Positions 9,348 to 50,085 of a DNA stretch of 64,000 nucleotides are shown piece after piece. The stretch is from positions 1,114,501-1,178,500 of the forward strand of contig NZ_CP045571.1 in NCBI RefSeq assembly GCF_009662475.1. Reading direction: 5' to 3'. How positions within the stretch are numbered: the stretch's first letter is position 1; each line of letters starts with the position of its first letter. Origin of the DNA: Acidithiobacillus thiooxidans ATCC 19377. GTDB taxonomy: Bacteria > Pseudomonadota > Gammaproteobacteria > Acidithiobacillales > Acidithiobacillaceae. The notes under the pieces are model-generated. The model saw only the letters and a program-made list of their open reading frames with translations, was not told the origin of the DNA and did no database searches. Both the position numbers and the translations under genes were made by a program.

Positions 9348-9388
9348 TCCAGTCTTGAGTGTTGGTGCTGCAAACAGACGGACAGGCA

Positions 9389-11647
9389 ATGGCTATATCA
9401 GGTGTGATCAATACAAATACTTCGACTTTGAACACGCTGGACGCACTCAATGGCACCCAGGGTGGCCTTGATACTTATTTGCAACAGCTATCTACGGGTA
9501 AGCGTATCAATAGCCCGGCTGATAATCCGGCAGACTACGCCATCGCCCAGCGTTTTCAAACCCAAATCAATGGGCTGAACCAGGCGATTGCCAAAGGCAA
9601 TCAAGGCGTTTCCCTGGTACAGACCGCTACTGGAGCCGTCCAGAATCAGATCAATTTATTGCAGCAGATTCGGACCACGGCAGTGCAGGCTGCCAATGCT
9701 TCCAATACCACTTCAGATCGCCAGGCTCTGCAGGGCGTGGTCAGTCAGTTGCTGGCCCAGGTGCAGACCATTGCGACCCAGACCCAGTTCAACGGTCAGA
9801 ACTTGCTGGATGGCACTTTTGCGGGTACTGCCTTTCAGGTGGGTGCCAACTCCAACCAGATAATCAATGCGGCGGTGGGAAATGCGCAGACTTCAGCCAT
9901 GGGCGATCATATACCCGCAGTTTCTCCGTACAGCGATAGCTACGGATGTAATGGCTCCTTTGTGAGCGGCGGTTTTGCGCCCGGAGGTGCCTTTACCATC
10001 ACTCCTGCCCAGACCAGTGCTTACTTTACTTTTAGCGGTGGTTCTTATGATTTCTACATATTTCGCGGTCTGCAGAATGGTGGAGAAATCGGTAGCAAAA
10101 TCAAAGTGACATTGACGGGAAACCCGCCGGATACGCAGGAACTGAATAAAATGGCTGCAGCCATCAGTAGCGCAGGAATCAAAATATCTGGCACAACGCA
10201 ATTGGTTAATGGCACACCTGTACTGAAATTGACCTATCCTGCCAACGACAAGGACATTTCCTTTAGCGGCCCACCCTATGTAACCAGTGGAAGTTATGAT
10301 TATAACAGTCAAACAAATGAAATCACCGTAACATTGCCTGATAGCGCGCCGCATCTGAATTCACTGCTCAGCGCCGTGAACCAAAATGTGGTTTCCGTAA
10401 CTAAAACCGGTTCATCTACACAGCTGACATATCCTGCCAGTGGGCAACGATATGCTTTCATAGAAGATTCTAACATTACCCAGAATCCGCCAATTATAAA
10501 TAGTAGCAGCGGCAGTATAACGTACACCCAGAATAATGGCGGGTCGGCTATGGCTCCAGACTCAACCGGAATGTTTCAGGAGGTTCACATAGAGAATGAT
10601 GCCTTCAGTTCCAGAGGAACGCTGATCACCAGTAATACGCCTGCCTCAGAGGCGATTATCCCCCCCAACACCTATTATGGCTCCTTCAGTTCCGGAACGG
10701 GGAGTAGCGGACTGAGCATCCAAGGTCCATTCGGTAGCGCGCAAGTGGATGTCAACACCGAGACAGAATCAGCAGCAAGCATCACTACGGCGGTCAATGC
10801 CGTATCCCAGCAGACGGGGGTCAAGGCCCGGGCCTATACCAGTGCCTCTTTTCTGGTGGCTACGGGAAGCTATACTTTTACCCTCAGTAATGGGAGTAGT
10901 GGTTTACCCAGAAATGCCGTGAACATCTCTGCCAGTGTGAACAATGCAGCCAACGGCCAGCCCAATTTGAATGCCTTGTTGACGGCCGTCAACCAGCACA
11001 CGGCAGTAACCGGCATTGCTGCCAGTAGCCGGGTAATCAATGGTAAACCCGAGCTGATTCTCACCAATGCCAATGGCGAGAATATCAATATTTCAGCTGG
11101 GTTAGCCAATGGTCAGTTGGCATCCACGGCCCTTGCCGCAGGCTCCACCGGCAGTTTGCAAGCCGTAAGTGGCAGCACTCAGGCCCTTATCGGTTACCCC
11201 ATCAACAGTTGATCTCATGCCGCGTTAATCCAGGGGGCGGTGCAATTTGCTTCGGCCAGCGCCTATCGGATCAATAATGGCGATATGATCGGATTCAGCA
11301 GCCAGGTCAGCAGACTGCAGAGTGGTTCGGCTCTGGCCGATATTGATGTGAGCACCCAAGAGGGGGCGCAACGGACCATTACCATTGTGGATCAAGCCTT
11401 GAACTATTTGAACCAGCAAGCCAGTGAGCTGGGTGCCACCCAAACCCGGATTCAGGTTTCAGTAGTCAATGACCAGAGCTCGGCCACCAATATGCAGTCG
11501 GCCCAATCGACTGTCCAGGATGCCAGTATTGCCCAGGCAACCTCACAGTTGACCAAATACCAGATTTTACAACAGGCAGGCATCTCGACCCTGGCTCAGG
11601 AAAACGCACTTCAGCAGGCCTATCTCAAGCTTCTGCCATCAGGCTGA
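9389..11647 (+). pseudogene. flaA: Flagellin A, interrupted by an in-frame TGA
   Basis: Flagellin gene whose frame is conserved from ATG 9389 to TAG/TGA near 11647 except for a single TGA at 11210-11212 (codon 608). Before it lie the N-terminal D0/D1 domains (INTNTSTLNTLDALNGTQGG, LQQLSTGKRINSPADNPADY) and a long variable centre. After it, still in the same frame, lies an intact C-terminal D1/D0 domain (ALIQGAVQFASASAYRINNG to LTKYQILQQAGISTLAQENA). The TGA replaces a codon that is Gly in the neighbouring flagellin, which suggests a single base change. The centre is about 235 residues longer than in flagellin B. Without readthrough the 607-residue product lacks the helix needed for export and polymerisation. 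The start at 9389 matches flagellin B. Confidence 0.85.
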
Positions 11648-11790: not shown

Positions 11791-13374
11791 ATGGCAATTT
11801 CAGGAATTATCAATACCAATACCTCAGCATTGAGTACGCTGAATGCATTAAATGGTACGCAAGGAAGTCTCAATACATACCTTCAGCAGTTGTCCACGGG
11901 CAAGAGTATCAATGGCCCGGCGGATAACCCTGCGGGTTACGCCATCGCCCAGCGTTTTCAGACCCAGATCAACGGGTTGAATCAGGCGGTTTCCAACGGT
12001 AACCAGGGCGTTTCTCTGGTGCAGACTGCTACAGGTGCCATTCAGAACCAGACCAGCCTTTTGCAGCAGATTCGGACTACAGCGGTCCAGGCAGCTAACG
12101 CTTCCAACACCACATCAGACCGCCAGGCTCTGCAGGGTGTGGTCAGCCAATTGTTGGCGCAGGTACAAACCATTGCCACCCAGACCCAGTTCAATGGTCA
12201 AAACCTGCTGGATGGCACTTTTGCGGGTGCGTCGTTTCAGGTAGGTGCCAACTCTAACCAAATCATTAACGTTGCGGTTGGCGATACCAAAACGAATGCG
12301 ATGGGAAATTATTCAGCGACTGCTTCTGGGAGTACATATACGAGCAGTGGATCTTTTCAGAATGGTGGTTATACCCCTGGTGGATCATTTACGATCAGTG
12401 CCAGTGGCACGGGTAATTTTAATGCCGGTTCAGGGGCAAGTGGTTTGATCATCCAGGGGAGCGTCGGTAACGCTTCAGTGAGTGTGAATTCTTCGACTGA
12501 GTCCGCAGCCAATCTTGCCGCTGCGGTGAACGGTGTTTCTGCTCAGACAGGGGTTACGGCTAAGGCTTATACCAGTGTGGCTTTCACAGCTACAACAGGT
12601 ACGTACACCTTTACTCTTAGTAACGGTAGCAGTGGTGCTGCGACTAATGCAGTTAATGTATCTGCCGATGTCACTGAGGGTTCCAATGGTCAGGCTAATA
12701 TTAGTTCGCTGGTCACGGCCATCAATAATCAAGCGGCTGTTACTGGGGTATCGGCAAGTACTCAGACCGTCAATGGTTCAACGGAATTAGTGCTGACCAA
12801 TGCGAACGGTAATAACATCAACATTTCGGCTGGTATTACATCTGGCGGGGCTTTGATTGGATCCGGACTTGCTTCTGGGTCAACAGGTTCATTAACCGCT
12901 GTTAGCGGAAGTACACCATCTACTGTCGGTTCAGCCATTACTTCTGGTTCTGCAAACGCCCTGATTCAGGGGGCGGTGCAATTTGAGTCTGCTAGCTCCT
13001 ACGCCATTGGCAATGGGGGTAATATTGGGTTTAGCGCTCAGGCAACCAGCTTGAGTGGATCAGAGGTGTCAAACATCAATGTTACCACCGCCGCCGGTGC
13101 CCAGCAGGCCATCGGTATTGTTGATCAGGCCATCAACTATCTGAACCAGCAAAACGGTAGTCTTGGTGCTATCCAGAACCGGATTCAGGCTTCGGTTTCC
13201 AATGATCAGACTACGGCTACCAACCTGCAGTCTGCGCAATCGGTGGTTCAGGATGCGAATATCGCGCAGGCGACTTCGCAGTTGACCAAGTATCAGATTC
13301 TGCAGCAGGCAGGTATTTCTACCCTGGCGCAGGAAAACTCCTTGCAGCAGAGCTACCTCAAGCTTCTGCCCTAA
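11791..13374 (+). CDS. flaB: Flagellin B (major filament protein candidate)
   Basis: Complete 527-residue flagellin. Conserved D0/D1 helices occur at both ends (AISGIINTNTSALSTLNALN, LSTGKSINGPADNPAGYAIA; and SQLTKYQILQQAGISTLAQE). A Ser/Gly/Ala/Thr-rich central domain of about 200 residues offers many possible O-glycosylation sites. A strong ribosome site (AAGAAAGGAGCACG) precedes the ATG. It is a tandem paralogue of the broken flagellin A, almost identical in the first 170 residues and the last 100. A FliA-like promoter upstream and a hairpin terminator downstream indicate an independent transcript. With flagellin A disrupted, this is the only intact flagellin in the window. Confidence 0.96.
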   Translation: MAISGIINTNTSALSTLNALNGTQGSLNTYLQQLSTGKSINGPADNPAGYAIAQRFQTQINGLNQAVSNGNQGVSLVQTATGAIQNQTSLLQQIRTTAVQAANASNTTSDRQALQGVVSQLLAQVQTIATQTQFNGQNLLDGTFAGASFQVGANSNQIINVAVGDTKTNAMGNYSATASGSTYTSSGSFQNGGYTPGGSFTISASGTGNFNAGSGASGLIIQGSVGNASVSVNSSTESAANLAAAVNGVSAQTGVTAKAYTSVAFTATTGTYTFTLSNGSSGAATNAVNVSADVTEGSNGQANISSLVTAINNQAAVTGVSASTQTVNGSTELVLTNANGNNINISAGITSGGALIGSGLASGSTGSLTAVSGSTPSTVGSAITSGSANALIQGAVQFESASSYAIGNGGNIGFSAQATSLSGSEVSNINVTTAAGAQQAIGIVDQAINYLNQQNGSLGAIQNRIQASVSNDQTTATNLQSAQSVVQDANIAQATSQLTKYQILQQAGISTLAQENSLQQSYLKLLP

Positions 13375-15857: not shown

Positions 15858-16238
15858 ATGAGTGTAGCGACAGCGGCGGCCATGCAGGCTTATAAGCAGG
15901 TCGGCAATCAGGGGATTTCCAGTGATCGTCTGGTGTTGCTGGGGCTGGAAGGAATTCTGGAATATATCCGGCGTGCCCGTCTGGCGATTCAGACTAAGGA
16001 CCTGAGCGTCAAGGCGGATTCCATGGACAAAGCCTACCAGCTGACCGCCCACCTTTTGGCCAGTGTGAACTTCGAGCAGGGCGGTGAAATTGCCAAAAAT
16101 CTCGACAGTCTTTATCGTTTCCTGTTAAATCAGTTGGCACAAGCCAATATTTTTGATGATTTGCAGGCGCTGGATGCCTGCCAGCCGGTGCTGGTGGATC
16201 TGCGCGACGCGTGGAGGGGACTGCTGGGTCATTCCTGA
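15858..16238 (+). CDS. fliS: FliS, flagellin export chaperone
   Basis: A 126-residue four-helix FliS. The N-terminal AMQAYKQVGNQ matches the Y-x-x-V segment typical of FliS, followed by LGLEGILEYIRRARLAI, KADSMDKAYQLTAHLL and LDSLYRFLLNQLAQANIFDD. FliS binds the C-terminal D0 helix of flagellin in the cytoplasm and prevents early polymerisation. It follows fliD directly, as in most flagellar clusters. A diverged paralogue lies at 42631. Confidence 0.92.
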   Translation: MSVATAAAMQAYKQVGNQGISSDRLVLLGLEGILEYIRRARLAIQTKDLSVKADSMDKAYQLTAHLLASVNFEQGGEIAKNLDSLYRFLLNQLAQANIFDDLQALDACQPVLVDLRDAWRGLLGHS

Positions 16239-16270: not shown

Positions 16271-16831
16271 ATGCTGGAGCAGCATGCCGTGGTACTGGAA
16301 GATGTGCTTCCCCTGAGCCTGGAGAAGGGTCAAGTAGATCCTGCGCGACGCGGTCGTCTGATGTTGGATAATTTGGCGCTTCTCAAGGCATTGCTGGTGA
16401 TGGATGATCACTTGCTGATGGAGGATGACAACCGGGAAGCCATCAGCAGCCTGGAAACCAAAATTGATTTGCTGCTGCTGTTGGTAGGTAAGGGCATACA
16501 AGGGCTGGAACCTTTGCCAACATCTTATTCCTGCGCGCTGGGTGCAGAAGATCTGTATTGGGAGACTACATCTTCGGCAGAGTTTCCCCATGAGCATGGC
16601 CCGGTCTGCGTGGCCCTTTTTTTGCGCCCCAGGATTGCCATGCCGCTGTTTCTTCCGGGTACCCTCCAGATGTCAGTGACTCAGCCGGAGGGTAGCGCAG
16701 AAACGCTATCTCGTTATCATTTGCACTTTCAGCTAGACGCGCGCGTGCAAGAATCACTGGATCGACTAATATTCCGTCACCATCGGCGTTCCATAGCGCG
16801 GCAAAAGGATCATCATTTGTCCGCAGAATGA
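16271..16831 (+). CDS. Probable atypical PilZ (c-di-GMP-binding) domain protein
   Basis: A 186-residue protein between fliS and the sigma-54 activator. The N-terminal half is strongly helical and Leu-rich (MLDNLALLKALLVMDDHLL, then IDLLLLLVGKGIQGL), suggesting oligomerisation. The C-terminal half is strand-rich and ends with VQESLDRLIFRHHRRSIARQ, which resembles the end of atypical (tetrameric) PilZ proteins found between fliS and flagellar regulators in xanthomonads. The classical RxxxR and D/NxSxxG ligand motifs are not obvious, so c-di-GMP binding is inferred. It is separated from the activator gene by 12 nt and may act with it. Confidence 0.55.
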   Translation: MLEQHAVVLEDVLPLSLEKGQVDPARRGRLMLDNLALLKALLVMDDHLLMEDDNREAISSLETKIDLLLLLVGKGIQGLEPLPTSYSCALGAEDLYWETTSSAEFPHEHGPVCVALFLRPRIAMPLFLPGTLQMSVTQPEGSAETLSRYHLHFQLDARVQESLDRLIFRHHRRSIARQKDHHLSAE

Positions 16832-39084: not shown

Positions 39085-39828
39085 ATGGATTTTTTGACAA
39101 TAATAGGGCTGGTGGTGGCCTTTGGCGGGATATTTTTAGGGCAATTGCTGGAGGGCGGTAAGCTGAGTTCTGTTTTGCAGCTTACGGCTTTTATCATAGT
39201 CATTGGCGGCACTATGGGTGCCGTGATGGTGCAGTATCGGCTCCCGGTTTTTGTACGTTCTTTGAAAATGGTGCCGTGGATTATTTTGCCCCCCAAAACA
39301 GATCCTCAACCGATTATTCAAGAGCTTCTGGAATGGAGTAATACAGCGCGCAAAAATGGCCTGCTGGCTTTGGAAGGATTATTAGAGAGCGTCACCGATC
39401 CATTTATGCGTAAAGGGCTGCAGATGCTGGTAGATGGTTCAGAGCCTGCCAAAATCCGTGCCACCCTCGAAGTGGATATGGATTCCCGCTCGGAAATTGA
39501 ACGTCAGGCGGCGCGGGTGTTTGAGTCAGCGGGCGGATACTCACCGACCATAGGTATCCTCGGTGCGGTTCTGGGTTTGATACACGTGATGGAAAACCTT
39601 GCCGATCCGGCTAAGTTGGGAGCGGGTATCGCCACAGCCTTCGTTGCCACGATATATGGGGTGGGCTCTGCCAATTTGCTGTTTCTGCCCATTTCCAACA
39701 AGCTTAAGGGTATTGTTCACCAGCAGAATTATTTGCGGGAGATGATCATTGAAGGTCTGGTCGGCATTGCGGAAGGAGAAAATCCGAAACTTATTGAAGG
39801 ACGACTTCAAAGCTTTTATGCGGAATAA
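39085..39828 (+). CDS. motC: MotC-type stator subunit (MotA family)
   Basis: A 247-residue MotA/TolQ-family stator protein most like MotC/PomA. Four membrane segments are visible: residues about 5-22, 32-50, 150-170 (GYSPTIGILGAVLGLIHVM) and 182-205. The cytoplasmic loop contains GLLALEGLLESVTDPFMRKG. MotC normally pairs with MotD, encoded next to it; here only a 51-codon ORF follows, then a GGDEF gene on the other strand. It must pair with a distant B subunit or with the MotB at 44495. Confidence 0.92.
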   Translation: MDFLTIIGLVVAFGGIFLGQLLEGGKLSSVLQLTAFIIVIGGTMGAVMVQYRLPVFVRSLKMVPWIILPPKTDPQPIIQELLEWSNTARKNGLLALEGLLESVTDPFMRKGLQMLVDGSEPAKIRATLEVDMDSRSEIERQAARVFESAGGYSPTIGILGAVLGLIHVMENLADPAKLGAGIATAFVATIYGVGSANLLFLPISNKLKGIVHQQNYLREMIIEGLVGIAEGENPKLIEGRLQSFYAE

Positions 39829-39839
39829 GGAGCACCCAA

Positions 39840-39995
39840 ATGGCTGATATTCCTTTTCGTCCAGTAGAAACCGGCACTCAACCCGTCCAACCTTTGCGTC
39901 CTGTCAGTCAGGATCAAAAGCAAAATCCAAAGTCGCCCGAAAGTCCGAAGCGCAAGAAGGGCGAGCCTGGGCATCAAGTGGATGAGTTTGCCTGA
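39840..39995 (+). CDS. Small Pro/Lys-rich hypothetical protein
   Basis: A 51-codon ORF with a strong ribosome site (AAGGAGCACCCAA) lies 11 nt after motC in the position where motD would be expected. The product is hydrophilic and probably disordered, beginning MADIPFRPVETG, with a basic stretch SPKRKKG. It has no membrane helix or OmpA-like domain, so it is not MotD. Its end overlaps the convergent GGDEF gene by 22 nt. I do not recognise it. Confidence 0.55.
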   Translation: MADIPFRPVETGTQPVQPLRPVSQDQKQNPKSPESPKRKKGEPGHQVDEFA

Positions 39996-41536
39996 TCAGC
40001 CAGGTAAATACGCTTGCGCCCATCTTTTTTAGCGCGATACATGGCCTTGTCAGCGGCAGCTATACTTTGTTCCTGACTACAGGAATTTTGCCAGACACTG
40101 ATTCCTCCGCTGAAACTGATTTTCAGTGGTTGGTCTTGAGCTTGAAATAACTGCCGCCCCAGTTGGAGTTGCACACGCTCCAGAATATCCAATGCATTTT
40201 CCGGCGTTGTATCGGGCATCAAAATGACAAATTCTTCACCTCCGTAACGGGTGATGACGTCATTGGCGCGCAAGGTGTCCTGTAAAACCTTGGCCATTCC
40301 CCGTAACACCTGATCACCCAGATCGTGTCCATACTGATCATTGACTTTTTTGAAGTGATCAATATCGACAATGGCGACGGTCAGTGGCTGATTGAGACGT
40401 TGGGCTCGAGCGGATTCCCGCAAGAAGGCCGCATTCAGCCCCCTTCGATTCATTGTTCCCGTCAAGGGATCCACGTGGACGAGCTGGCTGATGGATTCCA
40501 TTTCTTCTTCCAACTTGCGAATTTTTTCCTGGGCAGCGCTCAGACGATTTTTTGCCTGGATCAAGGTGTTTCTTGCTTCAATGGATTGTTTGGTGATGTT
40601 CTTGCTGGTATCCAAGACCTTACTGACAATTTTTCGTATTTGCTGCCAATCTGTCGTGCTGTCCAGTTCATTGACCAGGCTCTCCAGTTGCTGGTGATTG
40701 CGTCCGTTTTCACCGGCCATGCTTTCGACAGACATCAGCACCAGATTCACGAGATCACGAATGGCCTCGCGGGCTTCTCTGACTTCAGATTTGAGTTTTC
40801 CTTGCTGAAAAATGACTTCTTTTACCCGATGGATTGCCAAATCCAGCTCTTCATGATTATCAGCCAATTGCACGGCCTGGCGCACCACATCCATTTGCCC
40901 GGACAAAAATGCATCATTATCAAGTAGGTCGGCAACGTTTCTCAGCAGTAATTGCAAAAGTTCCTGTAATCCTTTGCGTATTTTTATTTCTTTTTCATCC
41001 AGCTCCTGCTGGTGTTGTAAAATATCTCTGGCTAAAGGAAACAGAGCATCCGCTTGGATTTCTTTTTCGTTGAGAAGCCCATCCAGTTGCTCCAGAAGAA
41101 GTGCGCCAGGCGGGTCTTGGTCCCGTATAGAATGGCGGATAACCGTTTTGAATAATTTCTGCCAGCCTTCACAATTCACCTCTTCAGAAGCACCATGATT
41201 GGTTTCTTCGAGACTGGTTTTTACCTGACGTGTGGGAAGTTTTTCCCATTTTTGGAGAAGTTGTTCCATTTTTATGGCTAAAGTGCCGGTATTTTTTTCG
41301 TCCAGAAGCTGATTTTTAGCTAATATTTTTTGAAGATGCGATAAACCCGCTTGCGATCTTTCCCATTCCGTACAGAAGCGGCGCATAAGATGTTGCCAAT
41401 TTATTTCGGGGGTGCTGTGTGCTCCAGAAATTTCATGATAGTACTGCGTATAATTTTCGGGGATCGGTGATAAACCAAGCTCCATAAGGCGTTTAAGGGC
41501 TTCCCGGGCAATTTCTGTGGGAGTTTTGTGGGTCAT
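39974..41536 (-). CDS. GGDEF diguanylate cyclase with long helical N-terminus
   Basis: A 520-residue cytoplasmic protein. Residues about 1-345 are helical with long coiled-coil predictions, starting TPTEIAREALKRLMELGLSP. Residues about 355-515 are a GGDEF domain with the active site RYGGEEF (about 432) and an inhibitory I-site RAND five residues upstream. It is probably an active cyclase making c-di-GMP under product feedback. It lies downstream of, and in the same direction as, the next GGDEF gene, 69 nt apart. Confidence 0.9.
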   Translation of the reverse strand: MTHKTPTEIAREALKRLMELGLSPIPENYTQYYHEISGAHSTPEINWQHLMRRFCTEWERSQAGLSHLQKILAKNQLLDEKNTGTLAIKMEQLLQKWEKLPTRQVKTSLEETNHGASEEVNCEGWQKLFKTVIRHSIRDQDPPGALLLEQLDGLLNEKEIQADALFPLARDILQHQQELDEKEIKIRKGLQELLQLLLRNVADLLDNDAFLSGQMDVVRQAVQLADNHEELDLAIHRVKEVIFQQGKLKSEVREAREAIRDLVNLVLMSVESMAGENGRNHQQLESLVNELDSTTDWQQIRKIVSKVLDTSKNITKQSIEARNTLIQAKNRLSAAQEKIRKLEEEMESISQLVHVDPLTGTMNRRGLNAAFLRESARAQRLNQPLTVAIVDIDHFKKVNDQYGHDLGDQVLRGMAKVLQDTLRANDVITRYGGEEFVILMPDTTPENALDILERVQLQLGRQLFQAQDQPLKISFSGGISVWQNSCSQEQSIAAADKAMYRAKKDGRKRIYLADQANSST

Positions 41537-41605: not shown

Positions 41606-42487
41606 TCAAGGCAGCAGGCGCGCCTGGTTTCGCCCTTCATGTTTGGCCTGATACAGTGCGGCATCGGCAATGGCAATCCGTTCATGGGATGGCACATTAG
41701 GCAGCAAGGAGGTTATCCCGATGGAAATGGTTACCTGAACAGGGGCGTGTTGTTCCAGCGGAAAGGGAGCGGAGGCGATTTTTTGACACAATCTCTGCGC
41801 AGTTAGTAGGGCGCAGCTTTTATGCATTTGCGGAAATATAGTCAAAAACTCTTCGCCACCGTAGCGATACAATCCATCGTAAGGGCGCAGAGCAGAGTAC
41901 AAACGGCGGGAAAGCTCCTTCAGAACAAGGTCGCCATTCACATGCCCAAAGCGATCATTGAATGTCTTGAAATGATCCACATCCAGCATGGCAATAAATG
42001 CAGAAGCACCACGGTCAACCAAAGCCTGTTCGCGACAGAGGTCTTCCTCCATACGACGACGATTAAGCAGGCCAGTGAGTGGATCCACTTCCCCCAGGTT
42101 TCTACTAAAAGCCACGATTTCGTCAAAACATTGGCGCTCAAGGACCTCTGCAGCATTCATCACCGCAAATAAATCACTGGCAGGTTCCTCATTTAAATTG
42201 AGATCTTGCAGTTTTTGCAGAATGTTGTGGTAGATTTTCTGGAGGTCCTGCCAAAACACTCGACGTCCTTCCGGGATCCGCGATTCCGGTGTATGTAAGG
42301 ATTGCAGTACGTCCTGCTCAGCTTGTCGAGGTAATGGGCGTCCTTGCAGGTGCTCGCGTAGCCAAAGCTGCCAGAATGATTTCCATGCTTCATAAAAATT
42401 AACGAGGTCAGCCAAATAGGGGCTGGTGTCAACTTGAGAAGCATCATTTTGATGCGCGTATGTTTCAGTTTGTGATTGTGCTGTCAT
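41606..42487 (-). CDS. GGDEF diguanylate cyclase, 293 residues
   Basis: A shorter cyclase: an N-terminal helical region of about 130 residues, then a GGDEF domain with RYGGEEF (about residue 209) and an I-site RPYD. A very strong ribosome site (GGAGGTGAGTC) precedes the ATG, and a sigma-54 promoter match lies just upstream, predicting a 15-nt leader. This ties c-di-GMP production to the flagellar regulatory cascade. It is transcribed away from the second fliS. Confidence 0.9.
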   Translation of the reverse strand: MTAQSQTETYAHQNDASQVDTSPYLADLVNFYEAWKSFWQLWLREHLQGRPLPRQAEQDVLQSLHTPESRIPEGRRVFWQDLQKIYHNILQKLQDLNLNEEPASDLFAVMNAAEVLERQCFDEIVAFSRNLGEVDPLTGLLNRRRMEEDLCREQALVDRGASAFIAMLDVDHFKTFNDRFGHVNGDLVLKELSRRLYSALRPYDGLYRYGGEEFLTIFPQMHKSCALLTAQRLCQKIASAPFPLEQHAPVQVTISIGITSLLPNVPSHERIAIADAALYQAKHEGRNQARLLP

Positions 42488-42512
42488 GACTCACCTCCGT
42501 TGGAGATTTAAA

Positions 42513-42528
42513 CGCAAAAGCCATGCCA
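42513..42528 (-). promoter_or_regulatory. Sigma-54 promoter of the divergent GGDEF gene
   Basis: On the minus strand, TGGCATG-GCTT-TTGCG matches the sigma-54 consensus closely with exact spacing. Predicted start near 42502, 15 nt before the GGDEF ATG at 42487, just enough for the GGAGG ribosome site. Confidence 0.65.
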
Positions 42529-42571
42529 CTTTTCGACTTTTCCAGTTCTGGTCTTTGTGGAAGAGGCATCC

Positions 42572-42599
42572 TTAAGTTTTCCCCGCGATGTGCCGTTAT
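42572..42599 (+). promoter_or_regulatory. FliA (sigma-28) promoter of the fliS2-fliL-motAB operon
   Basis: TTAAGTTT-N12-GCCGTTAT is close to the sigma-28 consensus and has the same spacer as the flagellin B site. It lies 31 nt before the ATG at 42631 and downstream of an in-frame ATG at 42523, so it decides the start of the second fliS. Confidence 0.7.
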
Positions 42600-42630
42600 C
42601 CTGTTTATTACGGGGGTGGGGAGATCCATT

Positions 42631-43065
42631 ATGCACCATACATCAAAGCGATCTGCGCGTGACCAGCGTCTGGATTCCATTGAGCAAACCGATTTTTCAC
42701 TGGTGCAGCTCGGTCTGGAAGGCGTTGTAGCCTATTTATTGCGCATCCAGAACGCCCTCGAGCACCGTGATTATACGGCCAAACGTGTGGCAGTAGAACG
42801 CGCCGAGCAACTCGTACAACATCTGCTTCTGCATTTAGGAGAAGAAACCCAAAAAGCAGTGATTCTGCGCCTGGACCGCTTGTATCGTTACCTGCTGCTC
42901 AAATTGGCCCACTGTAATATGTTCAATGATCTGGAGGCACTTTACGGTTGTGAGCCGATCATTGCGGATTTGCGACTGGAGTGGTCTATTGTGCACGGTG
43001 ATCAGAGAGATGAAAATGTCCGGTTTTCCAGATTAATAGACTTTGATGATATGCTTGCTGGGTAA
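42631..43065 (+). CDS. Second FliS-like protein, first gene of the stator operon
   Basis: A 144-residue paralogue of FliS. It shares with the fliS product at 15858 the pattern LGLEG...Y...R, LDRLYRYLLLKLAHCNMFND (LDSLYRFLLNQLAQANIFDD in FliS), the late ALYGCEPIIADLR and the closing Trp. It lacks the usual N-terminal AMQAYKQV segment, which contacts flagellin in FliS, and has a basic N-terminus and a 25-residue acidic tail instead. The client could be flagellin A, another secreted protein or a regulatory partner. The start at 42631 follows a GGGGAGA site and the FliA-like promoter. fliL follows after 39 nt. Confidence 0.8.
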   Translation: MHHTSKRSARDQRLDSIEQTDFSLVQLGLEGVVAYLLRIQNALEHRDYTAKRVAVERAEQLVQHLLLHLGEETQKAVILRLDRLYRYLLLKLAHCNMFNDLEALYGCEPIIADLRLEWSIVHGDQRDENVRFSRLIDFDDMLAG

Positions 43066-43104
43066 ATTTACATTCTTGAAATAATACGTATAGGCAAGGA
43101 CGCC

Positions 43105-43614
43105 ATGGCAGAAAAAGCAGGAAAAAGTAAACTGATTATTATCTTGATTGCAGTCATTGTATTTCTGGTGATTGTTGGTGGTGCTGCTGTCTGGTGGTTT
43201 ATGATGCGATCCACTGTCGCTCCGACCCCTGCACAAATCGCCCAACAACAGGCTAAACAAAAACTCCAGAACACCAAGTTCATTGATCTTGGCTCCCTGG
43301 TAACCAATTTGCAGAGTACCGATGGCAATACCCACTACATACAGGTTCAGATTCAGCTGAAAACTTATGACCCTTCGGTGGAAGCCTCAGTCAAATCGTA
43401 TATGCCGGAAATTCGCAATGGCATTTTGCTATTATTGAGTGCCCAGAATGCCGATACGGTCAGCCAGCCAACAGTGCGTGATCAGCTCCTGCAAAAAATC
43501 AAAGAGTTGGTTAACAAGGTGCTGGAAACAGATGGCGGCGCCCTGGCTAAACCGACACCAGAGAAAAGCCCGCCTATAGCGGCCGTGTATTTTGCCAGTT
43601 TTGTTGTACAATAG
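43105..43614 (+). CDS. fliL: FliL, stator-associated protein
   Basis: A 169-residue inner-membrane protein with one N-terminal span (about residues 10-33, LIIILIAVIVFLVIVGGAAV) and a periplasmic SPFH-like domain (FIDLGSLVTNLQSTDGNTHY, VRDQLLQKIKELVNKVL). FliL rings surround the stator and support its activity. Its usual place is before fliM; here it sits with motA and motB. Confidence 0.9.
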   Translation: MAEKAGKSKLIIILIAVIVFLVIVGGAAVWWFMMRSTVAPTPAQIAQQQAKQKLQNTKFIDLGSLVTNLQSTDGNTHYIQVQIQLKTYDPSVEASVKSYMPEIRNGILLLLSAQNADTVSQPTVRDQLLQKIKELVNKVLETDGGALAKPTPEKSPPIAAVYFASFVVQ

Positions 43615-43627
43615 TGGGATTTAGCAC

Positions 43628-44488
43628 ATGTTTCTGATCATCGGCTATGTGGTTGCACTGGGTGCCATTTTTGGTGGTTTCATGCTGGAAGGTGGTGCCA
43701 TCACTGCACTGATCCAACCCTATGAACTGCTCATGATTGGCGGCGGTGCTTTCGGTGCTTTTTTTGCTGCGACATTTCCCCGAACCTTCAAGGCCGTCAT
43801 TAAAGCCCTTCCACTCGCCTTCAAAGGGTCAAAGTACAACAAAGCCGTTTATATGGAACTACTCAGTTTGCTTAATGAGCTTTTTATTAAGATTCGCCAG
43901 GGTGGGCTCATGTCTATCGAGGGCGATGTTGATGATCCAACGGCTAGTGAATTATTTAAAAAATATCCACGTATTGTTGCGGATCATCATGTGATGGAGT
44001 TCTTGACCGACTACTTACGCCTGATGATTGGCGGAAATCTTGGCGCATTCGAAATGGAAAATCTCATGGATGTGGATATTGATACCCATCATCGGGAGAT
44101 GGAAATTCCCATTCATGCCTTGGTTCGTACCGCCGACGGAATGCCTGCCTTCGGTATTGTTGCTGCGGTAATGGGCGTGGTAAATACCATGGGTTCCGTA
44201 GATAAGCCGCCTTCCGTGCTGGGTGAGTTGATTGCTGCAGCCTTGGTAGGGACTTTTCTGGGTATTCTTCTGGGTTATGCCGTTTTGTCGCCCTTGGCTT
44301 CGCGAATGGAAGATCGGGCAGCAGAAGGAAGTAAAATTTTTGAATGTATCAAAGTGGCGTTACTGGCGACTATGAATGCTTATCCGCCCCAGGTGGCTGT
44401 GGAATTTGGCCGTAAGGTTTTATATTCGACAGAACGTCCAAGCTTTCAAGAGTTGGACAATCATTTGCGGGAGCTCAAGGGGAAATGA
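43628..44488 (+). CDS. motA: MotA, proton-driven stator subunit
   Basis: A 286-residue stator protein of the E. coli MotA type. Four membrane spans are visible, with the cytoplasmic loop containing the torque region (RQGGLMSIEGDVDDP, then LRLMIGGNLGAFEMENLMD). The transmembrane GMPAFGIVAAVMGVVNTMG carries the conserved Pro. It differs clearly from the motC product, so two stator types may be available. motB starts 6 nt downstream. Confidence 0.95.
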   Translation: MFLIIGYVVALGAIFGGFMLEGGAITALIQPYELLMIGGGAFGAFFAATFPRTFKAVIKALPLAFKGSKYNKAVYMELLSLLNELFIKIRQGGLMSIEGDVDDPTASELFKKYPRIVADHHVMEFLTDYLRLMIGGNLGAFEMENLMDVDIDTHHREMEIPIHALVRTADGMPAFGIVAAVMGVVNTMGSVDKPPSVLGELIAAALVGTFLGILLGYAVLSPLASRMEDRAAEGSKIFECIKVALLATMNAYPPQVAVEFGRKVLYSTERPSFQELDNHLRELKGK

Positions 44489-44494
44489 CAGATC

Positions 44495-45508
44495 ATGGCT
44501 GAAGAGGGAAAAAATAAGCCTATTGTCATAAAACGCATCAAAAAAGGAGGCGGCGGAGGCCACGGTGGTGCCTGGAAAATCGCTTATGCGGATTTCATCA
44601 CCGCCATGATGGCCTTCTTTTTGTTGATGTGGTTACTGGGGTCCACTACCAAAGCACAATTACAAGGGATTGCCCAGTGGTTTAAAAATCCTGAGAGGGT
44701 TTCATTGATGGGGGGACCCGGTAGTGGATCTTCCAATTCCATTTTGCCCGGCGGTGGCAAGAATCTGACGAAAACTGTTGGCGAAATTCAGCGCGGCGAA
44801 AAGCGGCAAAATCTTGCCAGTAATCCGACCCTCACTGCGGCTGTAGAAGCAGTGGATCGTAAGAATCTGGACCATTTGAAAAAAGCCCTGGAAGCACAAA
44901 TTGCCAGCAACCCTGCGCTGGCGGCTTTTCGTCACCAGTTATTGATCAATATTACTCCGGAAGGATTGCGAATCCAGGTGGTGGATAGCGCCAAACGTTC
45001 CATGTTCCCGAATGGCAGCACTGTTCTGGAGCCTTATGCTCAGACGATTTTCAAGGCTATTGCACCAACCTTGAATCAATTACCCAATCAGATCAGTATT
45101 ACCGGGCATACGGATGCCGTACGTTATGCGAATGGCGGCAAAGGCTACAGTAATTTCAATCTGTCGGCGGGACGTGCCAACGCTGTTCGCCAGGTGCTGG
45201 TTCAGAATGGTCTGGATGAAAGTAAAATACTGAGAGTAGTCGGCATGGGATCGGCGGTGTTGTACGTGCCTAAAGAGCCGGACTCTCCCTTGAATAGACG
45301 GGTAAGCATCGTAGTATTAAGTCAAAAAGCGGCATTGCGGATTGTTAATAATCAGAAAATGGAAAAAAGTGTGGATAATAGCAGTGCTGCTCAACAAATC
45401 ATCGGTGGGGCCGCCGCCGAAAAGCCAACTATTGCCGGGAGTATGCCCGCAGCCACTCCAGGAGTGCTTCCATTGCCATTGGCCGCGCCCGCTAAAAGCC
45501 CTGGGTGA
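44495..45508 (+). CDS. motB: MotB, peptidoglycan-anchored stator subunit
   Basis: A 337-residue stator protein. The N-terminus has HGGAWKIAYADFITAMMAFF, where the Asp of ADF is the proton-binding residue. The OmpA-like peptidoglycan-binding domain follows at about residues 170-280 (ISITGHTDAVRYANGG, NLSAGRANAVRQVLVQNGLD). The last 50 residues are Ala/Pro-rich. It pairs with MotA and may also serve the orphan MotC. It converges with the HDOD-REC-GGDEF gene; the 99-nt gap holds no clear terminator. Confidence 0.95.
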   Translation: MAEEGKNKPIVIKRIKKGGGGGHGGAWKIAYADFITAMMAFFLLMWLLGSTTKAQLQGIAQWFKNPERVSLMGGPGSGSSNSILPGGGKNLTKTVGEIQRGEKRQNLASNPTLTAAVEAVDRKNLDHLKKALEAQIASNPALAAFRHQLLINITPEGLRIQVVDSAKRSMFPNGSTVLEPYAQTIFKAIAPTLNQLPNQISITGHTDAVRYANGGKGYSNFNLSAGRANAVRQVLVQNGLDESKILRVVGMGSAVLYVPKEPDSPLNRRVSIVVLSQKAALRIVNNQKMEKSVDNSSAAQQIIGGAAAEKPTIAGSMPAATPGVLPLPLAAPAKSPG

Positions 45509-45607: not shown

Positions 45608-47410
45608 TTATGCAGCACTCCCAGTAGCTTTGGGCGCACAAATCACCTGATTTCGACCATTTCGCTTGGCTTCAAGCAAAGCCTGATCCGCAGCACGCAT
45701 TAATGTCTCGCTGTCAGTTATGTCTTCAGTTAATTCGGCAACACCGGCACTAATGGTAATGGGCGGCAGCTTGTCAGACAGACTCATGGCTTTGCGACGG
45801 ATACGTTCGGCCAAGGCGGCTGCGTCTGTCAATTGGCATTGGAGGCAGACAATCATGAATTCTTCTCCTCCCACCCGTGCCGTAAGATCACCCACTCGTG
45901 ACGTTTCCAGAAGTAGTTTTCCCATGGCTTCCAGTACCAGGTCTCCTTGATCATGGCCATGTTGATCATTGATTTGTTTGAAATAATCAATATCTATCAT
46001 GATACAGCTTAAAATGCTTTGACTGCGCAGGGCATTCGACCAGTGCTGCTTCAGAAACTCATCCGCTCCGCGACGATTGGCAAGACCGGTTAATGCATCT
46101 TTCATAGCCATGGATTGTAACGAGTTATTTTGATGAATGAGTTTTTCGCAGTTACTTTCAAGTGAAGAAATGAATTCTACTATCTGTTGGGCTACAGCAA
46201 GTTTAGCTAATAGAACACTCCGGGATATAGTCTTGCTCAAATAATCGTTGGCACCGGCTTGCAAAGCTTCCACGGCATAGCTCTGATCGTAATGAGCCGT
46301 CAAAATAATAATGTACAGTCGGGGGCCAAACTCGCGGCGCAGCCGACGACATAAATCCAGACCGTCGATTTCGGGCATCACCCAATCCAACAGAATAATC
46401 CGAGGAGAATTTTTATAAATAATGGTGAAGGCTTCGTCTGCAGTGGAAGCCTGAAGGGTTTGATAACCGGCAGGCTCGAGAGTGCGCTGTAACAATGCCC
46501 GGTCTCCGGCCTGGTCATCTACTAGAAGTAGTGGTTTGTTGCGAATATCTTGGTGATCCTCTCGTAAACGCATCAACGTATTACGTATGGACTCCAGGTT
46601 TTCAAGTCCCGGGGGAGAATGCGGCAATTCAAAAATTTCGGCGATATCTCTCCACTCAGCGAGTATATGGTGAATCATGGTTACGAAGTGCGGCGTATTC
46701 ATCCACCAGCTTTGGATGTTTTCCTGCAGGACTTCCAGGCTGCGATCAGACGCTGGAGACATGGCCCATTCAGTGATACTACGTCCGGCACCGAGAATGC
46801 GAATAAGGGTTTGCAGTCGATCTGGCGCGCTATTGGATGCGTGCTCAAGTTCGAAATCAGTGCCGGAACTGCAGTTTTCAATAGCCATAACCATGGTTTC
46901 CGGGAGTCGCCACTGCCGCATCAGAGCGGCAGTCAAATCATGACGACTAAATCCGAATTCATTTTTTTCCAGAATTTTCTGCTCAGCAAAACTTAGGCCT
47001 TTATTGTTAAATATGATGCTTTTTTCTGGAGCAGTACAGACCATCATCAAACTGCCGATTTCACTTAATAAGCCAAAAATAAAAATCTCACCGGCGGGCC
47101 AGTTCCCGATTTCTTTTGCCAGGGCCTGCATAGCAATCGCCCGTAACAAGCTGGCTGACCAGAAACGATTCAAATCAAAATCAGGAGCGTCAGGAAGTTT
47201 TTCAGTGATCAGGGTAAGGCCCAGCGCCATGCGAACTACCACCTGCAGACCGATTCGCATCAAAGCTTCATCTAAAGATACAATCGGGCGCGAAGGACGA
47301 TATATGGGGGAATTGGCGAGCTTGATGGTTTTGGCTACCAAAATCGGATCAAGCCGAATGAGCCGCGCAGCTTCGTCCAGGCTTGCATCTTCTTTTTGCA
47401 GCAAGTCCAT
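45608..47410 (-). CDS. HDOD-REC-GGDEF protein, 5' end removed by ISL3 insertion
   Basis: A 600-residue remaining ORF. The HDOD domain (about residues 1-215) begins abruptly at LLQKEDASLDEAARLIRLDP. A receiver domain follows at about 290-405 (LLLVDDQAGDRALLQRTL, with the phosphoacceptor in ILLDWVMPEIDG). A GGDEF domain ends the protein, with RVGGEEF (about 515) and an I-site RVGD. The native gene began at 48795: excising the ISL3 element and one 8-bp duplication joins 43 nt to 1835 nt, exactly 626 codons, giving a 625-residue protein whose first residues (MLIEAFLPQLEKGN) complete the HDOD start. In the current state only the ATG at 47410 is usable and it has a weak ribosome site. Confidence 0.9.
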   Translation of the reverse strand: MDLLQKEDASLDEAARLIRLDPILVAKTIKLANSPIYRPSRPIVSLDEALMRIGLQVVVRMALGLTLITEKLPDAPDFDLNRFWSASLLRAIAMQALAKEIGNWPAGEIFIFGLLSEIGSLMMVCTAPEKSIIFNNKGLSFAEQKILEKNEFGFSRHDLTAALMRQWRLPETMVMAIENCSSGTDFELEHASNSAPDRLQTLIRILGAGRSITEWAMSPASDRSLEVLQENIQSWWMNTPHFVTMIHHILAEWRDIAEIFELPHSPPGLENLESIRNTLMRLREDHQDIRNKPLLLVDDQAGDRALLQRTLEPAGYQTLQASTADEAFTIIYKNSPRIILLDWVMPEIDGLDLCRRLRREFGPRLYIIILTAHYDQSYAVEALQAGANDYLSKTISRSVLLAKLAVAQQIVEFISSLESNCEKLIHQNNSLQSMAMKDALTGLANRRGADEFLKQHWSNALRSQSILSCIMIDIDYFKQINDQHGHDQGDLVLEAMGKLLLETSRVGDLTARVGGEEFMIVCLQCQLTDAAALAERIRRKAMSLSDKLPPITISAGVAELTEDITDSETLMRAADQALLEAKRNGRNQVICAPKATGSAA

Positions 47411-48828: not shown

Positions 48829-50085
48829 TTATTTTAAACTGGATGCCCAGTTCATTGCATCCAGTGAAGCGGTCGTGATTTCTGCAAGTGGAAGTCCCAG
48901 TTTTTTTCCCATTTCTTTAACAGTGTCAAGATCTCCATGCTCTGCTGCTTCAATAAGTCCAAGTACGGCACCGTCTTCGCCCTCATGATAAATAAGCGCC
49001 TTGCGCATTTCATCGGAAATTTTTAATTCATTCAACAGATCTGGCAGTGGCTGCTTTAGATAGACATCCAGCAGCGACAACATACCCGCGAGAAAGCTGC
49101 GATGGATAGTGGCTGGCTGATCATCGAGGACTGGAGATTTTTCTCTGAGAATTTCAGCAAATTTGGCGCGGGTTGCGGCCATAGTGAGAATGGATGATTT
49201 TTGTGTACCCCGACTGGCAAACAGCAGCAAAGTCAGCCAGCGTTGCAGGGGGTGACGTCCAAGCAAAATAAGGGCCTGGCGAATGCTTTCTATTTCTTGA
49301 CCACGTGTCATTCCAGCAGAGTTCAAATAGCGTAAAAGTTGATAAGAAAGGCCGGGATCACGACGGAAAGCTTCTTCTATGTCACTGACGGGGTTTTCTT
49401 CGAGGAGCAGATTGAGCAAATTGAAAATGGTATGTTGATTGGAGGTCAGGGTTTTCCCTTTAACGATTTCCGGCTCCATGTAGTAGAAGCCCTGACTGTA
49501 ATCGACGCCTGCCTCAAAGCAGCGTCGAGCCAAAACGGCCGTTTCCACGCGCGTGGCAACTATTGCAGGATGTCGAGGGAGCTTGGAGTTTTTGATTTGC
49601 CTGATCCAAGCTTCCCATTGTTCCGGCGTGTTGTTCAAACAGTCGATTTTGATGAAGTCCACAATTTTGAGTAATGCCAGATGCCAAGGGGAGCCTTCGA
49701 AACGATCCAGGGCCAGGCGAAAACCCAGTTTTTGTAACTGCAGCAGGTGGCTGAGGAACTCACGGCTGGGTGCTTCGGTAATGGTGAACTCGGGTATGAC
49801 TTGTCGGGCGGGAAACAATTCCAGGCTTTTCTCGTCAAAATTGCTGTTGGTGAAATTGATGAAGGCCGGCTTTCCGCCGAGCAGGCTTTCAAGATTGTAA
49901 ACGCTGAAAGTTTTGATCAGAACTCGGGCAGAGCAAAGAAAGGGATCTTCCATTGGGCCGCTACTTTCATTGCGCGCAAAAAGCTCATAGCCGATGATTT
50001 CATCTTGGCGTCCGAGGATGGCTTGCCGGGCCACCAGTTCTTGACTTTCTTCAGGGGAAATTGAGTTTTGGGAGTTTAGGCTCAT
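48829..50085 (-). CDS. EAL-HDOD (YuxH-type) protein with degenerate EAL domain
   Basis: A 418-residue protein: an EAL-like domain (about residues 15-210) then a HDOD domain (about 215-405). The EAL active site is degraded: YELFAR replaces the EAL motif, the LExTE position reads FTITE, and the DDFG motif reads LDRFEG. It is therefore probably not a phosphodiesterase and may sense c-di-GMP or act as a scaffold. HDOD features include FRRDPGLSYQLLRYLNSAGM. Related proteins regulate motility. It starts 33 nt upstream of the displaced HDOD-REC-GGDEF start. Confidence 0.88.
   Translation of the reverse strand: MSLNSQNSISPEESQELVARQAILGRQDEIIGYELFARNESSGPMEDPFLCSARVLIKTFSVYNLESLLGGKPAFINFTNSNFDEKSLELFPARQVIPEFTITEAPSREFLSHLLQLQKLGFRLALDRFEGSPWHLALLKIVDFIKIDCLNNTPEQWEAWIRQIKNSKLPRHPAIVATRVETAVLARRCFEAGVDYSQGFYYMEPEIVKGKTLTSNQHTIFNLLNLLLEENPVSDIEEAFRRDPGLSYQLLRYLNSAGMTRGQEIESIRQALILLGRHPLQRWLTLLLFASRGTQKSSILTMAATRAKFAEILREKSPVLDDQPATIHRSFLAGMLSLLDVYLKQPLPDLLNELKISDEMRKALIYHEGEDGAVLGLIEAAEHGDLDTVKEMGKKLGLPLAEITTASLDAMNWASSLK

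Follow-up and report, generated by a model that had tools for sequence, protein, structure and literature searches.

FliS is mainly known as the escort that brings flagellin to the flagellar export gate, and also as a binder of FlgM. In Salmonella, Tyr-10 of FliS is critical for FlhA, and FliS bound to FlgM suppresses FlgM secretion (PMC8527033). In Bacillus subtilis, a fliS lacking residues 2-18, or carrying Y7A,Y10A, gives the phenotype of a fliS deletion, and Tyr7 and Tyr10 lie outside the flagellin interface (PMC6070490). The usual place of the gene is next to fliD or flagellin. Genomes with a second FliS, as in the case presented here, have been described for Pseudomonas aeruginosa (FliS2, PMC12221181) and for the magnetotactic strains MO-1 and MC-1 (PMC7175107), but those duplicates lie beside fliS or cluster with fliC and fliD, whereas the FliS2 studied here is encoded with the stators.

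Within the genus, a gene called fliS2 is one of nine flagellar genes reported to carry non-synonymous differences between Acidithiobacillus albertensis and A. thiooxidans (PMC5731081). Sharing genus and name, it is likely the gene analysed here, although the stator operon, the promoter and the domain changes are not described in the text consulted. The neighbourhood has a counterpart in A. caldus, where the cyclase ACAty_c1319, encoded beside fliL-motA-motB, accounts for 85-93% of the c-di-GMP and cells that have lost it are more motile; a cyclase adjoins the stator genes there as here, but the available text of that report mentions no FliS-like gene (PMC4331095). Both the name fliS2 and the cyclase-stator neighbourhood are thus already in print. 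A search of the text of open-licence papers found no FliS in a stator operon and no account of the FliS2 domain changes.

Gene order and its conservation in the family

The window, that is the whole stretch of DNA analysed, covers 64,000 nt of the 3.4-Mb, single-contig genome of A. thiooxidans ATCC 19377. The ordinary FliS (FliS1; 15858..16238, + strand) follows fliD. A diverged paralogue of 144 aa, FliS2 (42631..43065, + strand), is the first gene of an operon in which ORFs and profile matches place fliL (43105..43614, +; Pfam FliL, 78 bits), motA of the MotA1 type (43628..44488, +; TIGR03818, 382 bits against a cut-off of 303.8) and motB (44495..45508, +; NF006548, 361.6 bits, cut-off 277). 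A reading made from the sequence only had proposed a second FliS of 144 residues opening fliL-motA-motB, and the ORF, its neighbours and a Pfam FliS match of 53 bits bear it out. An in-frame ATG at 42523 would give a protein of 180 aa; we prefer the Met at 42631, because the upstream ATG precedes the conserved FliA-type site described below and the orthologues align from the Met at 42631. No third FliS was detected in the genome: the Pfam search gave two FliS only, as did a combined profile (A4), although a Pfam genome search alone would miss copies as diverged as those of the genera g3 and g4.

On the minus strand, across a gap of 143 nt (42488-42630) that agrees with the sequence-only reading, lies a diguanylate cyclase gene divergent from fliS2 (41606..42487; 293 aa, with GGEEF and an RxxD I-site; Pfam GGDEF, 136 bits). 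A second diguanylate cyclase is encoded on the same strand at 39974..41536 (520 aa, GGEEF; Pfam GGDEF, 150 bits). After the stator operon there are an HDOD-receiver-GGDEF gene (45608-47410) and an EAL-HDOD gene (48829-50085, its EAL match being just under the Pfam cut-off), with a transposase-like ORF between them. Given these genes downstream of motB, the stator genes sit in a c-di-GMP neighbourhood. A second MotA-type gene (motC, 39085-39828) stands after fliA with no B partner adjoining, and the genome's other MotB-type gene is located some 10 kb ahead of the window. A gene for a tPilZ protein (atypical PilZ, c-di-GMP receptor; 16271-16831) immediately follows the ordinary fliS and is itself followed by an NtrC-type regulator.

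The family is represented by 29 genomes, and 19 of them have FliS2: 12 of the 17 genus (g1) genomes, one of g3 (G021) and six of g4 (G019, G022, G023, G024, G026 and G027). In every one of these 19 genomes the gene lies directly before fliL, with motA after; motB comes next in 17 (G024 and G027 are outside this count), and a cyclase is divergent from fliS2 in 18, none having been found in G006. The genome G015, where fliS2 appears on one contig together with the cyclase and on another together with the stators, was counted once. The sequence-only reading had proposed that the same gene order be sought in relatives, and had named its absence from all of them as what would speak against the claim; the linkage is in fact found in all 19 genomes with the gene. 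Outside the family, none of 45 FliS loci (about 3.3 kb each, three genomes being represented twice) has stator genes beside FliS, and fliD is within about 1.5 kb in 40 of them.

Among the ten family genomes where FliS2 was not found, five show no flagellin (G011, G014, G018, G025 and G028), G012 and G013 have a different flagellar cluster, and G009 is not scorable, its contig ending inside fliL. The remaining two, G017 and G020 (g2), have a stator operon without FliS2, in the order fliL, YcgR-type PilZ gene, motA-motB (L147:4887-5747 and L152:3132-3896). We considered YcgR as a replacement for FliS2 and rejected it, as a PF07317 search gave no clean exclusion: several FliS2 genomes carry YcgR-type genes at other sites. 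G012, G013 and G021 (L071, L072 and L073) have a further flagellar cluster that includes separate copies of fliC, fliD and fliM and a weak FliS, and motA of G021 (L150:4382-5238) is matched by BLAST in two parts, which looks like a frameshift in the assembly.

The seven copies of g3 and g4 give no Pfam FliS match and were first found by position. A profile-profile alignment (hhalign, A1 versus A3) joins them to the genus copies with 98.5% probability (E 3e-15). The combined profile A4, itself built with the g3 and g4 copies included, recovers them by sequence among 31 genomes of the order; its matches in G023, G024 and G026 extend past the stop upstream of the frame used. FliS2-profile matches fall in 12 named loci, nine from Acidithiobacillus and three from metagenome-assembled genomes named only Proteobacteria. 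In the class, profile A1 matched 32 of 369 genomes, the window's own included, in a search not sensitive enough for copies with the divergence seen in g3 and g4. For the other 31 genomes, the 29 loci inspected had no stator genes, while G355 and G368 gave no locus.

Promoter sites between fliS2 and the cyclase gene

The gap holds a FliA (sigma-28)-type site facing fliS2-fliL-motA-motB (42573..42599, + strand), with the sequence TAAG-N15-GCCGTTAT, and a sigma-54-type site facing the cyclase gene (42513..42528, - strand, one mismatch). The first is the sole zero-mismatch match to the pattern used in the 64 kb, where matches with up to two mismatches number 36 against 19.7 expected; for the sigma-54-type pattern, the window has eight matches at one mismatch against 4.5 expected, which is not significant alone. 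Conservation in place is better evidence for both promoter sites than the pattern matches.

In all 12 genus genomes with FliS2, a FliA-type site precedes the gene by 28-32 nt, with 0-3 mismatches. When compared with shuffled gaps, which preserve base counts and not dinucleotides, it was rarer than expected in 11 of the 12 (p up to 0.04), with p 0.19 in G008. The genome G006, having no adjoining cyclase, was included for this site only. The sigma-54 site is free of mismatches in ten of the 11 genus gaps and has one in the window genome, and its distance to the cyclase start is 26-30 nt in ten; in G016 it is 29 nt from an in-frame ATG, or 81 nt if measured from the partial cyclase match. Among the g3 and g4 gaps, the best sigma-54 site has 1-2 mismatches in 5/5 (p 0.004-0.06 versus shuffled gaps) and in each the cyclase has an in-frame ATG at a distance of 30-35 nt from it. 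In three of these five gaps the FliA-type site is found 32-33 nt before fliS2 (2-3 mismatches, p 0.05-0.28), and in G023, given the start codon chosen, 6 nt before it; the G021 gap has no convincing one (four mismatches).

We assigned genes to the FliA regulon by a promoter of the type TAAA-N15-GCCGATAA at a conserved place, and fliS2 has one. As the sequence-only reading had said, sites of both kinds are there, and they are conserved in place; its further statement that they drive the two genes is best kept conditional, and we infer that the FliA-type site would drive fliS2 and the sigma-54-type site the cyclase gene. Data from A. caldus are consistent with the first assignment. In an rpoF (FliA) knockout, fliL (A5904_1536) shows a significant decrease, and the gene with the neighbouring tag, A5904_1537, annotated as a conserved hypothetical protein, is extremely low and was called RpoF-dependent (PMC6543871). 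From the tag number and the conserved gene order, A5904_1537 would be the FliS2 gene; it is FliA-dependent, as the site described here predicts, and is not named FliS there. If this assignment is right, FliA control of fliS2 has already been measured without the gene being recognised.

Divergence of FliS2 from the ordinary FliS

FliS2 matches Pfam PF02561 with 53 bits (cut-off 26.7) over profile positions 16-112, whereas FliS1 scores 100 bits over positions 1-113; hence FliS2 is without the N-terminal 15 positions of the FliS profile. With TIGR00208, the fliS equivalog (cut-off 53.75 bits), FliS1 passes at 84.1 bits and FliS2 fails at 41.4.

We aligned 13 FliS2 rows with 31 FliS1 rows (12 from the genus, 3 from the family, 2 from the order and 14 from the class). 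At the alignment column of the FlhA-docking Tyr, 31/31 FliS1 rows and 2/13 FliS2 rows have Tyr, and the window's FliS2 has Asp. The claim that FliS2 lacks the Tyr-containing N-terminal segment is therefore right for this genome and does not extend to the whole genus, since two of the 12 FliS2 genus genomes (G008 and G016) keep Tyr at that column and the loss of docking is not universal. The GGxIA loop is present in all FliS1 rows and in no FliS2 row (0/13), but this loss alone is not telling, because FliS of B. subtilis is also without it.

A further feature, which had escaped the sequence-only reading, is a C-terminal tail (43033..43062, + strand, codons of residues 135-144) with the motif (V/I)D(F/L)xx(M/F)L, found in 13/13 FliS2 rows and 0/31 FliS1 rows. 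In G006, Leu takes the place of the otherwise conserved aromatic residue (Phe) of the motif. VDFERLW ends the single g3 copy (C-terminus VDFERLWSGQ), and the motif is not clear in the six g4 genomes. Looking by eye for a protein that the tail might mimic gave nothing firm, and neither the FlgN nor the FliT profile is among the Pfam matches of FliS2 up to E = 1. The positions that contact the flagellin C-terminus, named for Helicobacter pylori FliS (PMC7248283) and placed by hand on our alignment, are partly kept in FliS2 (Tyr84 as Tyr85, Leu64 as Leu65, Arg56 as Arg57) and partly lost (Asp69 as Gly70, Gly73 as Gln74).

The AlphaFold2 model of FliS2 has pLDDT 79.7 and pTM 0.74. The tail is weakly predicted, with pLDDT averages of 49-65 in the last three blocks and a short helix at 138-141. 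The best eight Foldseek matches of the model are FliS chains (TM to target 0.57-0.89). In a VIA comparison, the model and H. pylori FliS gave Z 14.2 with rmsd 1.8 over 101 aligned residues, but unrelated helical bundles also reach Z 11-13, and the fold assignment therefore draws on the sequence profile too. That profile finds the FliS proteins of Salmonella, B. subtilis, H. pylori and Aquifex, and the best solved matches are those of the first three. By these comparisons, the predicted structure of FliS2 keeps the FliS four-helix bundle.

In the phylogenetic tree, 19 FliS2 rows are split from the 31 FliS1 rows with support 100/100, in a midpoint-rooted tree with long branches in g3 and g4 and a bootstrap that had not settled. 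GLEG and DLRxxW features are common to FliS2 and the FliS1 of the family, which suggests that fliS2 arose by duplication in this lineage. The gene is under purifying selection, with dN/dS of 0.08-0.30 in 7/7 pairs; the values are above those of fliL in six of the seven pairs and above those of motA in all seven.

To summarise the comparison with the FliS export chaperone, FliS2 shares its sequence core and predicted helical bundle and differs by equivalog failure, a docking Tyr absent in 11/13 rows, the missing GGxIA and the added C-terminal motif. The label "chaperone" given to FliS2 by the sequence-only reading is not supported: the fliS equivalog fails, the FlhA-docking residue is lost in most rows and a tail has been gained. 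A FliS reshaped in this way, at the head of a stator operon, suggests that a chaperone fold has been recruited for another role.

Possible roles of FliS2

A simple account would make FliS2 the chaperone of a second flagellin. We rejected it, since FliS2 occurs where one flagellin gene was found, as in G019, G023 and G026. Flagellins were counted here as Flagellin_N matches above 95 bits, those of 49-67 bits being taken as flgL-like by score and place; draft genomes may hide flagellin copies, and G002 has no match above 95 bits. FlgM was found in 17/19 FliS2 genomes, with none detected in G019 and G023. In the window, the first flagellin gene (9359-11212 and 11240-11647) is broken by an in-frame stop, so that its product would lack the C-terminal part bound by FliS; the stop may be a genuine nonsense mutation or result from a sequencing error. 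The second flagellin gene (11791-13374) is whole.

The reading that we prefer, with a probability of roughly 0.4, is that FliS2 is a subfunctionalised, lineage-specific duplicate, no longer part of the export pathway, which serves in the cytosol as a non-exporting binder of a FliS-type client and is made together with the stators. A FliS without the Tyr segment should keep its client from the gate, which favours a non-exporting binder. FliA would make FliS2 at the same late stage as the stators; the protein would remain in the cytosol, and its helical bundle would bind a FliS-type client but not pass it on to the gate. The likeliest clients would be the flagellin C-terminus or the anti-sigma factor FlgM, with the tail as a second contact, and FliS2 could in this way tune flagellin or FliA output to stator production. 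The stators themselves would not be chaperoned, since they are membrane proteins that are not exported through the flagellar gate. We hold more tentatively, as a possible extension, that this non-exporting FliS has been built into the stator operon as a regulator which, through the new C-terminal contact, ties filament or FliA status to stator and c-di-GMP motor control.

It is rather doubtful that FliS2 is instead a true stator factor, binding FliL or the cytoplasmic parts of MotA or MotB, perhaps within c-di-GMP motor control. The strict operon linkage with fliL-motA argues for such a role, as do the two divergent cyclases, the HDOD-receiver-GGDEF and EAL-HDOD genes after motB, the YcgR-type PilZ gene that separates fliL from motA in both g2 genomes lacking FliS2, and the lowered motility associated with the A. 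caldus cyclase, which makes 85-93% of c-di-GMP beside fliL-motA-motB (PMC4331095). However, linkage may come from nothing more than shared timing, the rate at which FliS2 evolves is far above that of MotA and not what a tight MotA partner would show, and the YcgR-type genes elsewhere in several FliS2 genomes mean that there is no clean replacement. To our knowledge, moreover, no FliS binds stators. We consider it unlikely that FliS2 is still an export chaperone, serving flagellin or another late substrate and docking on FlhA through its C-terminal D-F-x-x-M-L in the manner of FlgN and FliT, for which C-terminal aromatic residues make the contact. Tyr-122 of FlgN and Tyr-106 of FliT are near the C-termini of these proteins. 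Those are the residues used by the two chaperones (PMC8527033), and FliS2 retains the FliS fold and has a tail kept in 13/13 rows with a predicted short helix at 138-141; but the conserved aromatic of the tail is Phe rather than Tyr, and even Leu in G006, the tail is not clear in g4, its pLDDT averages 49-65 in the last three blocks, and FliS2 co-occurs with one flagellin gene and a full FliS1. Least probable is a decaying duplicate held only as operon leader, for the promoter and translation start of the stator genes. It would fit the faster evolution of fliS2 with respect to fliL and motA and the seven g3 and g4 copies without a Pfam FliS match, yet dN/dS is well below 1 in all seven pairs, the frame is open in 19 genomes across three genera, and the tail is newly conserved.

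Read as a non-exporting binder, a conserved paralogue mostly without the docking residue and encoded with the stators would represent a natural separation of the functions of FliS. FliS2 could show whether filament assembly is linked to motor deployment, in a genus used in bioleaching and beside cyclases of the kind that sets motility and attachment in A. caldus.
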